From: Actinomycetota bacterium
GTDB taxonomy: Bacteria; Actinomycetota; Thermoleophilia; RBG-16-64-13
Assembly: GCA_012523095.1 (NCBI GenBank)
Contig: JAAYJE010000113.1
Coordinates: 1 to 64,000 of the forward strand
Reading direction: 5' to 3'
DNA length: 64,000 nt
The notes under the pieces: generated by a model
What the model was told of the DNA's origin: nothing
What the model saw: the letters and a program-made list of their open reading frames with translations, nothing else
Database searches by the model: none
Program-made: the position numbers and the translations under genes
Shown: positions 55,773 through 63,010 of the stretch, piece by piece
Numbering within the stretch: position 1 is the first letter of the stretch
Layout: each line of letters starts with the position of its first letter

Positions 55773-56876
55773 GTGGAAAAGGATAAGGCCCTTGAGATGG
55801 CCGTCTTGCAGATAGAAAGACAGTACGGCAAGGGGTCCATCATGCGGCTGGGAGACGAATCGGCGGCGCTGCGGGTACCGGCCATCTCTACGGGGTCTTT
55901 GGCGCTCGACCTCGCGCTCGGAGTGGGCGGGGTGCCGAGAGGCCGGGTGGTTGAGATATTCGGTCCCGAGTCGAGCGGCAAGACGACCCTGGCCCTGCAC
56001 ATGATCGCCGAGGCTCAACGGGCAGGGGGCAAGGCGGCCTTCATCGACGCAGAGCATGCCATGGACTCTCTGTACGCGCGCAAGATCGGCGTGAACGTCG
56101 ATGAACTGTTGGTTTCGCAACCCGACAACGGCGAGCAGGCTCTGGAGATCACCGAGTTGCTTATCCGCAGCGGTGCGCTCGACATCGTGGTCATCGACTC
56201 CGTGGCGGCGCTCACCCCTCGGGCTGAGCTCGAGGGTGAGATGGGCGATTCTCATGTTGGTCTACAGGCTCGACTCATGAGTCAGGCCCTGCGGAAGTTG
56301 GCGGGCACTATCAGTAAGACGCAGACCACAGCGGTCTTCATCAACCAGCTCAGGGAGAAGGTCGGCGTCATGTTCGGCAATCCTGAGGTCACCCCGGGGG
56401 GCAGGGCACTCAAATTCTACGCGTCGGTGCGGCTCGACATACGTCGGATCGAGACGCTCAAGGAAGGGACGGAGGCCGTGGGCAACCGGGTCCGCGTGCG
56501 CGTGGTGAAGAACAAGGTGGCTCCGCCCTTCAAGGAAGCGGAGTTCGACATCATGTACGGAGTGGGCATCTCCACCGAGGGTGACGTCCTCGACCTGGCC
56601 GTCGGGAACAAGATCGTACAGAAGAGCGGCTCTTGGTTCTCGTACGGCGACCAGCGCTTGGGGCAGGGGCGGGAGAACGTGCGACAGTTCCTGCGCGACA
56701 ACCCCGACCTGGTGCAGCAGTTGCGCCGGCAGGTCATCCAGGCTGTGGAGCCGGAGTGGGGGGGCGCGGTCGCGGAGTCTGCGTCTGAGGATGCGGCCGT
56801 CGTCGTGTCGGCGCCGGCGGCTGCCGCTGCGGACGGGGAGGCCCCCGCGGGAGGTAAAGAGGCGGCCACACAGTAG
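55773..56876 (+). CDS. recA: Recombinase RecA
   Basis: Forms filaments on single-stranded DNA for strand exchange and triggers LexA cleavage. Walker A is GPESSGKTT (64-72). [64 protein letters not shown] and the [15 protein letters not shown] segment are canonical. The last ~35 residues are Ala/Glu-rich. It is 367 residues long with GTG at 55773 after GGAGGAG. No SOS box was found in the ~50 bases upstream, so control may come from further up. Confidence 0.97.
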
Positions 56877-56927: not shown

Positions 56928-57650
56928 GTGGCCGGGGGTAGGCGCGCGACGCCGGCGTCGCGCGCGGACGGTACGATCACCGGACTGGTCGCGAAGAGAG
57001 GCCGGTCTGATCGCGTGAGGGTCTTTCTCGACGGTAAGCCGGCCTTCGACTTGGCCGCGGTTGTTGCAGACCGCGCCTCCCTCCGCGTGGGCGATATCCT
57101 GACGGAGGAGGAGCAAGAGCGGCTGGTTATGGCCGACACTCCCTACCGTGCCCGCGAGAAGGCTCTGGGGTTCCTGGCCGTTCGAGAACGCACGGGCCGG
57201 GAGATCGAAACGCATCTGCACAGGTCGGGCTTTGAATCCGATATCGTGACCGGCGTGGTGACCTGGCTGGAGGAATTGGGCTACGTCGATGACCGGCGTT
57301 TCGCGGAACGGTATGCGGAGGAGAGACTCACTCAAGGGTGGGGAGAGAGACGGGTGAAGGCCGAACTCCTGGGCAAAGGGGTCGAACGGGGGATCGTCGA
57401 GGCGACGCTCGACGCGTGCGCCGGCAAGGAGGGCCATGCGGGAGAGGGCCTTGAGGCTGTGACTGCCATGGCGCGCCGGCGTTTCGGGAGCCAGTTCGCG
57501 TTGGATCCCGAGGCCGCATCCCGTCGGCTGGCGGCGTTCATGGCTCGTCGTGGGTACGACTGGGACGCCATCCGCTCCGTGGGACGGGCTCTTGCCTCTG
57601 AGGCCGGCAAGGGAGAAAGCGCGATCGACGCCGGACGCGGTCTCGACTAG
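56928..57650 (+). CDS. recX: RecX regulatory protein
   Basis: An inhibitor of RecA filaments, built of three-helix repeats. The core has AREKALGFLAVRERTGREIETHLHRSGF, LEELGYVDDRRFAERYAEERLTQGWGERRVKAELLGKGV and a C-terminal repeat RRLAAFMARRGYDWDAIRSVGR. The ~70-residue N-terminal lead (GTITGLVAKRGRSDRVRVFLDGKPAFDL) is common in Gram-positive RecX. GTG at 56928 lacks a clear ribosome site, consistent with low expression or coupling to recA. Confidence 0.9.
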   Translation: MAGGRRATPASRADGTITGLVAKRGRSDRVRVFLDGKPAFDLAAVVADRASLRVGDILTEEEQERLVMADTPYRAREKALGFLAVRERTGREIETHLHRSGFESDIVTGVVTWLEELGYVDDRRFAERYAEERLTQGWGERRVKAELLGKGVERGIVEATLDACAGKEGHAGEGLEAVTAMARRRFGSQFALDPEAASRRLAAFMARRGYDWDAIRSVGRALASEAGKGESAIDAGRGLD

Positions 57651-57683: not shown

Positions 57684-57713
57684 TTGACACTTCACTCGCG
57701 GCAAGGGTAAACT
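57684..57713 (+). promoter_or_regulatory. Promoter between recX and rny
   Basis: A consensus TTGACA (57684-57689) and TAAACT (57708-57713) are 18 bases apart. A second possible -10, GATAAT (57725-57730) preceded by TGC, follows. Just downstream is the palindrome CGGTCG-A-CGACCG (57731-57743), which could be an operator or a 5' stem. Confidence 0.7.
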
Positions 57714-57730
57714 CAGCCACGTGCGATAAT

Positions 57731-57952
57731 CGGTCGACGACCGTTGTTGTTGGACCTTGCTTGTGGCTGACGATTGTTCTTCGACTCGGCATGCCTTGCG
57801 ACTGGAGGCGGGTCGAAGAGTTGAGTCTTGGGGAGAACCTCGGCGCTGCGATCCGACAGGGGATGGCGGTCAGGTCGCCGGCGCGGTTTGTCTCGAGTGG
57901 GGGCAAGGTGTGGAACAGGTAGTCATCGGCCGGGCGTGTGCTCGGCTTTTTT
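57731..57952 (+). ncRNA. Structured rny leader or small RNA
   Basis: The ~220 bases between the promoter and the terminator hold several stems: CGGTCG/CGACCG (57731-57743), a perfect 8-base stem TCTTCGAC/GTCGAAGA (57778-57785 with 57812-57819) enclosing GCCT/AGGC, ATCC/GGAT, and GGCG/CGCC near 57866-57880. No credible reading frame is present. Known riboswitch signatures were not recognised. It is either an attenuated leader of rny or a free-standing RNA. Confidence 0.5.
57929..57952 (+). terminator. Intrinsic terminator upstream of rny
   Basis: GCCGGGC (57929-57935) pairs with GCTCGGC (57940-57946), with one G-T pair and a GTGT loop, followed by six T. It is 78 bases before the rny ATG, so rny needs read-through or a promoter in the remaining gap. 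Confidence 0.75.
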
Positions 57953-58030
57953 CGTGTCCGGCGGACGGTCGACCCTCGCATGATTATCCAACCAAGCGGC
58001 GGTGACGTGCGCGATGGGAGTGGTGGACAT

Positions 58031-59572
58031 ATGATGACGGCAGTGTGGATCGTGATAGTGCTGGTGGCGGCGATCGTCTTCGCAGTCGTCGGCTTCTTTG
58101 CCCGCAAGCATTTGGGAGAGGCGAAGATAGAGTCGGCTGAAGAAGCCGCCAAGAAGATCGTGGAAGACGCCGAACGCCAGGCCGAGGCCATCCAGCGCGA
58201 GGCCCGGGTGGAGCTCAAAGACGAGCTGCACCAGCTTCGGACCCAGAGCGAGGCGGAGAGCAAGGAGCGGAGGCAGGAACTGAGCCAGCTCGAGAACCGC
58301 CTGCTGGCGAGAGAAGAATCGCTCGACGAGATGCAGAAGGACACGGCGCGTCGGGAACAGTCGGTGAGTGATCGCGAAGCCCATTATCGGAAAGTCCTTG
58401 AGGAGGTCGAGAGCGCCCGCACGGAACAGCAGCGCCGACTGGAAGAGATCTCCGGCCTCACCAAGGACCAGGCCGCGGAGATTCTGCTCAAGCGCACCGA
58501 GGACGAGGTGCGGCACGACATGGCCAAGATGGTCCGCGCTATAGAGGAAGAGGCCCGGCACGAAGGCGAGCGAAGAGCGCGGGACATCCTCTCGGTGTGT
58601 ATCCAGCGTACCGCGGCCGGTCATGTGGCCGACACGACGGTGTCGGTGGTGCCGTTGCCTTCGGACGACATGAAGGGGCGCATCATCGGGCGTGAGGGCC
58701 GCAACGTCCGCACGTTGGAGAATCTGACCGGCATCGACTTCATCATCGACGACACACCGGAAGCGGTGGTGCTATCGGGCTTTGACACCGTTCGCCGCGA
58801 GATCGCCCGGTTGACGCTCTCGAAACTGGTGGCCGACGGACGTATCCACCCGGCTAAGATCGAAGAGATGTATTCAAAGGCTCGGGAAGAGGTCGAGAAG
58901 GAGATCCAAGACGCCGGTGAGCAGGCCGTGCTCGACGCCAACGTTCACGGGGTGGCGCCGGAGCTCTTGCGCCTTCTGGGCAGACTCAAGTTCCGTACCA
59001 GCTATGGACAGAACGTGCTCATGCATTCGCTGGAGGTCGCGCACCTGGCCGGTCTGATGGCCAACGAACTGGGTGTCAACGCCAAGCTGGCCAAGCGGGC
59101 CGGACTGCTTCACGACTTGGGCAAAGCCGTGGACCACGAAGTCGAGGGTTCCCATGCCATGATCGGAGGGAACCTTGCTCGTCGCTACGGCGAGTCGGAG
59201 GCGGTGGCGCACATCATCGAAGCCCACCACTACGAGATCGAGCCCAACATGGTCGAGGCCGTACTGGTGGCTGCGGGTGACGCCGTGAGCGGCGCCCGTC
59301 CAGGAGCGCGCAGAGAGACGCTTGAGACCTATATCAAGCGGCTGGAGTCCCTGGAACGGATCGCGGAGAGCAAGCCCGGCGTGGAGAAGTCGTATGCTAT
59401 ACAGGCGGGCCGCGAGATCAGAGTGCTGGTCAAGCCCGATGAGATCGATGACGACGCTGCGGGCCTTCTCTGCCGCGAGATCGCCAAGGAGATAGAGCAG
59501 GAGCTCGACTACCCCGGCACGATACGGGTCACGGTCATCCGGGAGAGCCGCGCGATCGAGTACGCCAAGTAG
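58031..59572 (+). CDS. rny: Ribonuclease Y
   Basis: A membrane-anchored endoribonuclease that starts mRNA decay in many Gram-positive bacteria. One N-terminal membrane segment (~5-24) is followed by a long coiled coil (~30-190), a KH domain (~210-270, [21 protein letters not shown]) and an HD domain with [18 protein letters not shown] (~360) and the [24 protein letters not shown] tail. It is 513 residues long. ATG at 58031 gives the standard membrane start. It precedes miaB-miaA. Confidence 0.95.
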
Positions 59573-61031: not shown

Positions 61032-61982
61032 ATCGGGATACTGGGGCCCAGCGGGGTAGGTAAGACGGCGGTGGCGGTCGAACTTGCCCGGCTCTGCGGC
61101 GTCCGGGTGATCTCCTGCGACTCCATGCAGGTGTACCGAGGCTTCCCGGTGCTCACCGATCAGCCCTCCGCGGCGGAAAGGGACGTCGTCCGGCACGAGC
61201 TGATCGGCTGTGCGGAACCGCTTGAGACGTTCTCTGCCGCCCGCTATGCGGAGGCTGCCTGCCCCTTGGTCGAGGCGGACTTGGCGGAGAAGGGCCGAGC
61301 TTTGCTAGTGGGAGGGACGGGGCTGTACATGCGCGCGGCTTTGGCGCCGCTTGACGCGCGGCCGCAGGCCGACCCTGGATTGCGTTTCGAACTCGAGAGC
61401 CGGGCCCGTGAAGAAGGGGGTGAGACACTCCATGCCGAGTTGGCCCGTCTCGATCCGGCGGCCGCAGAACGGATCGACGCACGCAACATCCGCAGGGTGG
61501 TGAGGGCTCTGGAGACGGTCTCGGCGACCGGGAGGGCCTGGTCGGGCCGGGATGATCTGTGGGCTCCTTCGTATCGTCATCCGACGCTGATGATCGGGCT
61601 GACGCTGGAAAGGACGGAGCTGTATCGGCGCATCGAGGAGCGCGCCGTCCGTATGATCCGGCGGGGCGCGGTAGATGAGGTGCGGGCCTTCCGGGAAGAG
61701 CACGGGTCGGAACGGACCCGGCCTGGTGGCGCCGGGATCCGCAGCGCCATCGGATATGAGGAGGTATGCCTCCACCTGGAGGGACGTCTGACGCTTGAAG
61801 AGGCGGCAGCGCAGATCGCGGCGGCGACGCGGCGCTACGCCCGTCGCCAACTCACCTGGCTGCGCAAGGTGGAAGGCGCTGTTATCATTGACATCGCGGA
61901 CAGGAGTCCCGACGATATCGCCGAGGAGATAGCAGCGCTCGCTGCGTCCGGAGAAAGCACGAAGGAGCCCGAACACGCATGA
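60948..61982 (+). CDS. miaA: tRNA dimethylallyltransferase MiaA
   Basis: Transfers a dimethylallyl group to A37 of tRNAs. Walker A is GILGPSGVGKTAVA (~30-43 from the longest start). VISCDSMQVYRGFPVLTDQPS and LVGGTGLYMRAALAPLD follow, and ARRQLTWLRK lies near the C-terminus. The first ~28 residues are not conserved and come from a 42-base duplication (60948-60989 with 60990-61031); ATG at 60948 and ATG at 60990 are equivalent, and the second would give a more typical N-terminus. Confidence 0.93.
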   Translation: MSGPGASAAGRDTVMSRSGASEPGPGTVIGILGPSGVGKTAVAVELARLCGVRVISCDSMQVYRGFPVLTDQPSAAERDVVRHELIGCAEPLETFSAARYAEAACPLVEADLAEKGRALLVGGTGLYMRAALAPLDARPQADPGLRFELESRAREEGGETLHAELARLDPAAAERIDARNIRRVVRALETVSATGRAWSGRDDLWAPSYRHPTLMIGLTLERTELYRRIEERAVRMIRRGAVDEVRAFREEHGSERTRPGGAGIRSAIGYEEVCLHLEGRLTLEEAAAQIAAATRRYARRQLTWLRKVEGAVIIDIADRSPDDIAEEIAALAASGESTKEPEHA

Positions 61983-63010
61983 AGCTGGCCAAATGGCAGG
62001 GACTCGGCAACGACTACCTCATCGTGGAGGAGAGCGCTCTGCCCGCCCCTCTCACGCCGGAGGCCATCGGGCTGCTGTGTGACCGCCACCTGGGCGTCGG
62101 TTCCGACGGGATCCTCCTGAGGACCGAGCCCACCGGCGCGGTGCCCGGCGCGGTGGCCCGTATGCGGGTCTTCAATCCCGACGGCGGTGAACCCGAGATG
62201 TGCGGTAACGGCATCCGCATGTTCGCCCGGTATCTGGCCGCGACCGGCACGGTCGTCGCGCGTGAGTTCACGGTTGAGACGCTGGCGGGTCCCATCACGC
62301 CCCGGCTGCTTGAAGACGGCGCCGTGAGGGTGGACATGGGGCGGGCGCGGTTCCGGAGCGACAACATCACGCCGGAGGTCACGCCGCAGGTCGCGCCGCA
62401 GGTCGCGCCGCAGGTCGCGCCGCAGGTCGCGCCGGACGTCCCGGGGAGTGTCGCAGACAAGACCCGGGGAGCGTCTGACGCCGCCGGTCCGGCCGAGGGT
62501 TCGGCCGGCGGCGCCGATGTGGTGGACGCCCTCCTGCGTGCGGATGGGGTCGACTACCGCTTCACCTTCGTCGATGTCGGGAACCCTCACTGCGTGATCG
62601 TGGTGGATGATCCGGCGACATTCGACGTGGCCGACGTGGGTCCCGTTGTCGAACGCCATCCCTACTTCCCCAATCGCGTGAACGTGGAGTTCATCCGTGT
62701 GGAGATCGACGGCTCGGTGAGGATGCGGGTGTGGGAGAGGGGAGTGGGAGAGACCCAGGCCTGCGGCACCGGGGCGACTGCGGTGGGGGCGGCGTGCGTC
62801 CGCCTGGGACTCGCAGCGAGTCCGGTGCTGGTGCGCCTGCCGGGCGGCGATCTCACCATCGAGGTGGAGGGCGGCGCCGAGACCGGTGCGCCCGCGGGTT
62901 CCGAAGGCCTGCAGGTCTTCATGACCGGGCCGGCGGAGGAGGTTCTCACCGCGGAACCGTCACCCGAACTCCTGCGCCGGCTGGGTTGGCCGGCGCCATC
63001 TACCCACTGA
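61979..63010 (+). CDS. dapF: Diaminopimelate epimerase with repeat insert
   Basis: Converts LL-DAP to meso-DAP for lysine and peptidoglycan. The two catalytic cysteines are Cys75 (EMCGNGIRMFARY) and Cys262 (QACGTGATAVGAA). KWQGLGNDYLIV and VDVGNPHCVIVVDD are canonical. Between the domains (~130-180) is an extra segment, starting with six copies of a 12-base repeat encoding (A/T)PQV and continuing Ala/Gly-rich. At 343 residues it is longer than the usual ~275-290. The start overlaps miaA by four bases. Confidence 0.94.
   Translation: MKLAKWQGLGNDYLIVEESALPAPLTPEAIGLLCDRHLGVGSDGILLRTEPTGAVPGAVARMRVFNPDGGEPEMCGNGIRMFARYLAATGTVVAREFTVETLAGPITPRLLEDGAVRVDMGRARFRSDNITPEVTPQVAPQVAPQVAPQVAPDVPGSVADKTRGASDAAGPAEGSAGGADVVDALLRADGVDYRFTFVDVGNPHCVIVVDDPATFDVADVGPVVERHPYFPNRVNVEFIRVEIDGSVRMRVWERGVGETQACGTGATAVGAACVRLGLAASPVLVRLPGGDLTIEVEGGAETGAPAGSEGLQVFMTGPAEEVLTAEPSPELLRRLGWPAPSTH
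62369..62440 (+). repeat. 12-base tandem repeat x6 inside dapF
   Basis: Six in-frame units of (A/G)CGCCGCAGGTC, with the first and last units diverged, encode TPEV, TPQV, APQV x3 and APDV. They lie in a surface loop between the two epimerase domains. Confidence 0.95.

Follow-up and report, generated by a model that had tools for sequence, protein, structure and literature searches.

A candidate transcription attenuator in the leader of the RNase Y gene of an uncultured Thermoleophilia-type bacterium

The untranslated leader of rny, the gene encoding RNase Y, in an uncultured Thermoleophilia-type bacterium probably acts in cis as a transcription attenuator controlling rny by premature termination, a reading to which we give a probability of roughly 60%. 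In many bacteria RNase Y initiates the decay of mRNA, and the amount of the enzyme must stay bounded. The leader lies in the window, the whole stretch of 64,000 nucleotides of DNA that was analysed, which belongs to a draft genome of 2.5 Mb. A preliminary description of this DNA had left the choice between an independent RNA of about 220 nt and premature termination upstream of rny. A predicted antiterminator, a pairing that reaches past the terminator and the linkage to rny all point to premature termination and away from a stand-alone RNA; the terminated RNA of about 230 nt would be a by-product.

The genes of this region follow one another in the order recA (55773-56876), recX (ending at 57650), rny (58031..59572, + strand) and a miaB-like gene, names which we take from the sequences and from general knowledge. 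The closest named relatives of the RNase Y are found in Actinomycetota bacterium AS06rmzACSIP_50 (89%) and Thermoleophilia bacterium FR_37 (77%). Further along, a dapF-like ORF (61979-63010) carries five tandem 12-bp repeats (VAPQ) at window positions 62370-62443. The features recognised or predicted between recX and rny are the following.

57684..57713, + strand: sigma-70-type promoter, with the -35 element TTGACA at 57684-57689, an 18-bp spacer and the -10 element TAAACT at 57708-57713
57720..57731, + strand: predicted 5' end of the transcript (predicted start site) and 5' strand of the long-range helix P0
57730..57737, + strand: predicted antiterminator strand, UCGGUCGA, with complementarity to the 5' arm of the terminator, UCGGCCGG (57926-57933)
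57754..57762, + strand: 5' strand of the long-range helix P1 (ACCUUGCUU), from a permutation test
57778..57819, + strand: internal hairpin of 11 bp in the predicted fold, 57778-57788 paired with 57809-57819
57901..57909, + strand: 3' strand of P1 (GGGCAAGGT), from the same kind of test
57926..57952, + strand: intrinsic terminator, with a hairpin at 57928-57947 and a run of six T at 57947-57952
57968..57982, + strand: 3' strand of P0, downstream of the terminator, pairing with 57720..57731
58016..58020, + strand: Shine-Dalgarno-like GGGAG of rny, kept as GGAGTGGTG or GGACTGGAG in relatives

The leader was compared across three families from the same class, mostly represented by draft genomes: f1, the order of the window (18 genomes), f3 (13 leaders) and f6 (12 leaders). 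Upstream of rny they share a common layout, consisting of a TTGAC-type promoter, 195-255 nt, usually a GC-rich hairpin with a T-run, and then rny itself. Conservation in sister genomes, on which the preliminary description had staked its proposal, was found for this layout in each of the 18 genomes from the order, as well as in f3 and f6; DNA similarity alone picks out the gap mostly inside the genus. The window's promoter matches the consensus at 10 of 12 positions, which taken alone is not beyond chance, as four sites of this type were found against 2.1 expected in the 18-kb region scanned. TTGAC and a -10 element are, however, kept at the same site upstream of rny in 18/18 genomes of the order, whose RNase Y proteins are 72-92% identical, and the TTGACA-18-TAAACT promoter proposed earlier is borne out. 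Three mechanically called ORFs (82, 53 and 51 codons) overlap the stretch, and none keeps its position, length or frame in 17 relatives; a coding function was rejected on this ground, in agreement with the original remark that the stretch holds no credible reading frame. Taken together, the promoter, the terminator, the linkage to rny and the covariation of P0 described below are supported by comparison of sequences.

The six-T terminator of the preliminary description is present (57928-57952), and the ATG of rny at 58031 follows 78 nt after the end of the T-run. A hairpin with a T-rich tail is present in 15/18 genomes of f1 (counting L017, whose stem is short), 13/13 of f3 and 12/12 of f6, and it is degenerate in L015 and L019 of f1. 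In L009 (G003:C22), the terminator loop, the 3' arm and the T-run are replaced by a run of N, and the hairpin is possibly masked or unassembled. No second promoter was found between the terminator and rny in the window. Furthermore, the distance from the terminator to the start codon is only about 25-60 nt in f3, which leaves little or no room for such a promoter, so that transcription of rny must cross the terminator. With the complete terminator present, equilibrium folding favours it in most leaders, and read-through would therefore need a kinetic decision or a factor.

A strand able to compete with the terminator is predicted at the very beginning of the transcript. When the RNA was cut just short of the terminator 3' arm, the 5' arm was predicted to pair with approximately nt 10-25 of the transcript in 37 of the 40 leaders of f1, f3 and f6. 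The main partner lies within nt 1-35 in 12/15, 13/13 and 12/12 leaders, respectively, against 5.5, 4.8 and 4.6 expected from dinucleotide-shuffled leaders carrying the real terminator, and the mean pairing probability (0.63, 0.72 and 0.72, compared with 0.27, 0.27 and 0.25 after shuffling) exceeds that of every one of the 100 shuffle sets made per family. Another partner is preferred in three of the 15 f1 leaders. For the truncated RNA of the window, UCGGUCGA pairs with UCGGCCGG in the centroid fold and not in the minimum-energy fold. From these folds with their shuffle controls, the predicted antiterminator is well supported as a property common to the families, and covariation supports it only partly: in f6 the arms of AUCUGCU..GCAUA with UAUGC..AGCAGAU change together between genera (p = 7.5e-4, with few genera), in f3 the signal is weak (p = 0.04), and in f1, where the sequence of the strand is conserved, cognate and permuted arms did not differ (p = 0.26).

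The simplest reading of a promoter followed by a terminator is a plain constitutive leader, in which a partial terminator insulates rny from recA-recX (SOS) and fixes its expression at a low level with no switch. This would suit the position after recA-recX and a terminator that is strong in folding, and it is nevertheless unlikely: the terminator stands 3' of the promoter of rny itself and so limits that promoter too, the 5' end is complementary to the terminator arm in three families, and f6 keeps the terminator without recX.

A second long-range pairing involves the same end of the transcript. In f1 the first ~12 nt can pair with a stretch located 20-40 nt 3' of the terminator, forming helix P0. 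When RNAalifold was run on the complete f1 alignment, the terminator and a local hairpin (GGUCG/CGACC), which competes for these 5' bases, were the only structures recovered. Misalignment of the variable middle is the probable cause, and for this reason P0 was tested through duplex energies of cognate and swapped arms. The cognate arms are favoured with z = -5.3 across the 18 f1 genomes and with z = -4.1 when one genome per genus is used (p <= 5e-5). When the two arms are aligned without gaps, in a register that was picked by eye (that of the energy test was not), standard pairs make up 81% of the cells, compared with 67% after swapping of arms (0 of 5000), and changes on both sides occur at 11/12 pairs. 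Independent minimum-energy folds also show P0 in most f1 leaders. Moreover, P0 is retained despite the poor terminators of L015 and L017, which indicates that selection acts on the read-through rny mRNA and not only on the terminated RNA. An equivalent helix between the 5' end and post-terminator bases was sought in f3 and f6 and rejected (p = 0.39 and 0.47, respectively). Within the leader of f1, helix P1 (ACCUUGCUU with GGGCAAGGU) is less strongly backed than P0 by the sequences, with a permutation z of -2.7 (p = 0.003) and p = 0.057 for one genome per genus.

The element is bound to its neighbour. BLAST and models were used to look for copies. With a sequence model built on the f1 5' element, 17/18 genomes show a single strong copy each, located upstream of rny, and no convincing match lies away from rny in the 18. 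The f6 RNA covariance model has matches in 14 f6 genomes with rny, and the match adjoins that gene in every genome where adjacency could be judged, all but G067, whose rny is split across contigs; the RNA was not found in G022, G085 and G090, which gave no rny match either. In f6 the upstream neighbour is recA, recX is absent and the leader still adjoins rny. In a further family, f2, no RNase Y homologue was found in the genomes sampled (G018, G023, G028 and others), many of which are more than 95% complete. The occurrence of the RNA is thus tied to rny, as expected for the autoregulatory leader of an RNase gene, and a promoter, an untranslated leader and an intrinsic terminator stand directly 5' of it, as in cis attenuators, together with the predicted, shuffle-controlled upstream strand able to pair with the terminator 5' arm.

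These results make it quite improbable that the RNA is a stand-alone, trans-acting sRNA of about 230 nt lying upstream of rny by chance, with rny fed by leak-through or from recA-recX. Such an sRNA would have its own promoter and terminator and this very size, and the preference for the terminator at equilibrium in most leaders would be natural for it; yet the element occurs only next to rny, stays there when recX is gone and is missing from f6 genomes without rny, and its best covarying helix, P0, employs bases 3' of the terminator and persists in f1 members where the terminator is poor.

The body of the leader shows little conservation. The palindrome CGGTC-GAC-GACCG (57731-57743), placed at the likely start in the preliminary description, is real in the window and specific to the window genome, being broken in relatives; the perfect 8-base stem also described there is present, and the predicted fold extends it to 11 bp. 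Folding energy was dropped as evidence of special structure, since it is not significant for either 57720-57952 (z = -1.6) or 57720-58014 (z = -0.3), and the case for the leader therefore depends on the comparison of genomes. The Rfam search that had been proposed gave no match for the window stretch at gathering scores, with chance-level matches only at E<=10, and no known riboswitch or leader class of Rfam 15, Actino-pnp included, matched in the window and 20 relatives, in keeping with the first impression that no known riboswitch class is present. 6S RNA (RF00013), the first guess for an RNA of ~220 nt with a strong promoter, was rejected, as its score is below the cut-off and the 6S RNA of this genome lies at a separate locus (G000:C154). 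A riboswitch-like mode, with the ~190 nt from the 5' strand to the terminator binding a small molecule and so choosing between antiterminator and terminator, is very unlikely, for although the switching strands flank a large structured domain containing P1 and hairpins, there is no Rfam riboswitch match, the mean column identity of the domain is 47% in f1, unlike that of known aptamers, and consensus folds outside the hairpins are weak.

According to the attenuator reading, transcription would begin near 57720, the predicted start, and the first ~20 nt of the RNA would pair with the terminator 5' arm as an antiterminator, allowing read-through and the production of RNase Y. If the 5' end were held elsewhere, the terminator would form, releasing a leader RNA of about 230 nt and yielding no RNase Y. 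After read-through, the same 5' end would pair just 3' of the terminator through P0, closing the entire leader as one domain that ends 5' of the Shine-Dalgarno sequence. We infer that termination is regulated, and P0 may protect the 5' end of the rny mRNA from 5'-end-dependent decay.

By analogy, RNase Y activity is a plausible first candidate for the signal, acting as a feedback, and a natural one because RNase Y controls itself in Bacillus subtilis via cuts in its own mRNA. A more specific version, in which the leader senses the capacity for RNA decay because RNase Y or 5'-end trimming of the nascent leader removes the antiterminator and causes termination, appears distinctly unlikely as it stands. 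An AU-rich AUAGAU motif, conserved just 3' of the 5' strand, was considered as an RNase Y site and set aside: it is somewhat open in f1 but not in f6, and it is missing from the window leader.

Attenuation is not universal in the class, since f4 and other families have an rny leader conserved at its 5' end without an obvious terminator. As judged from the sequences, either the mode of control would have changed within the class or attenuation would be one mode among several. A group of f4 leaders (L116-L123 and L170-L189) shares a different, strongly conserved 5' motif, approximately CUUCAUCCGACGUUUUGCCUGCA..CGUUUUCCGAAUCG, with no obvious terminator. Six leaders of this family (L116, L161, L172, L174, L177 and L178) contain a 17-codon uORF of the form M-S-x(5)-D/N-T/S-E-R-x-L-T/A-A-A-x-stop, which starts with ATG or GTG and, by eye, shows synonymous changes without indels; it is a possible leader peptide. 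In L118, L159, L160, L170 and L171, the Shine-Dalgarno sequence of rny falls within a predicted hairpin (CCUACG...CGUAGGAG), which suggests translational control in that branch.

The closest known system concerns the same gene. In B. subtilis, RNase Y autoregulates by cutting its own mRNA in the 5' UTR (164 nt) and within the first ~100 nt of the ORF, which leads to decay (Korobeinikova et al., 2023, PMC10303841). Both cases would involve control in cis through the rny transcript, with the 5' UTR as one control region; the text of PMC10303841 mentions neither terminator nor attenuation, whereas a terminator and a predicted antiterminator are found here. In Escherichia coli, RNase E binds a stem-loop in the leader of its own gene, rne (Diwa et al., 2000; Schuck et al., 2009; as cited in PMC2864571 and PMC10303841). 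This is likewise the leader of a gene for a decay-initiating endonuclease, although RNase E is an enzyme unrelated to RNase Y. We know of no terminator switch in the E. coli rne leader. The rplJL leader of B. subtilis is controlled by L10(L12)4 attenuation (PMC4538822), and it is similar in that attenuation takes place 5' of a gene that may itself encode the effector; the protein ligand is known for rplJL, while the effector is a candidate only for rny. Finally, the Actino-pnp motif (RF01688) is a conserved RNA of Actinobacteria classed as cis-regulatory (PMC2864571). The rny leader differs from it in having no Rfam match. From its name and general knowledge, Actino-pnp presumably adjoins an RNase gene, and the two would be alike as conserved actinobacterial RNAs upstream of such genes.

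No earlier report of an attenuator or a conserved RNA 5' of rny was found in the open-licence literature. Self-control of RNase Y via its own leader is not wholly new, as B. subtilis achieves it by mRNA decay and not by attenuation. A conserved leader of the terminator/antiterminator type before rny, in an actinobacterial class that is unstudied, would represent a second, independent solution to the control of RNase Y, and it would add an RNA family missing from Rfam in which the 5' end of the transcript serves as the switching strand. If, in addition, the leader were to sense decay as outlined above, the feedback would be direct, and transcription of rny would go on only as long as the 5' end of its RNA stayed intact.
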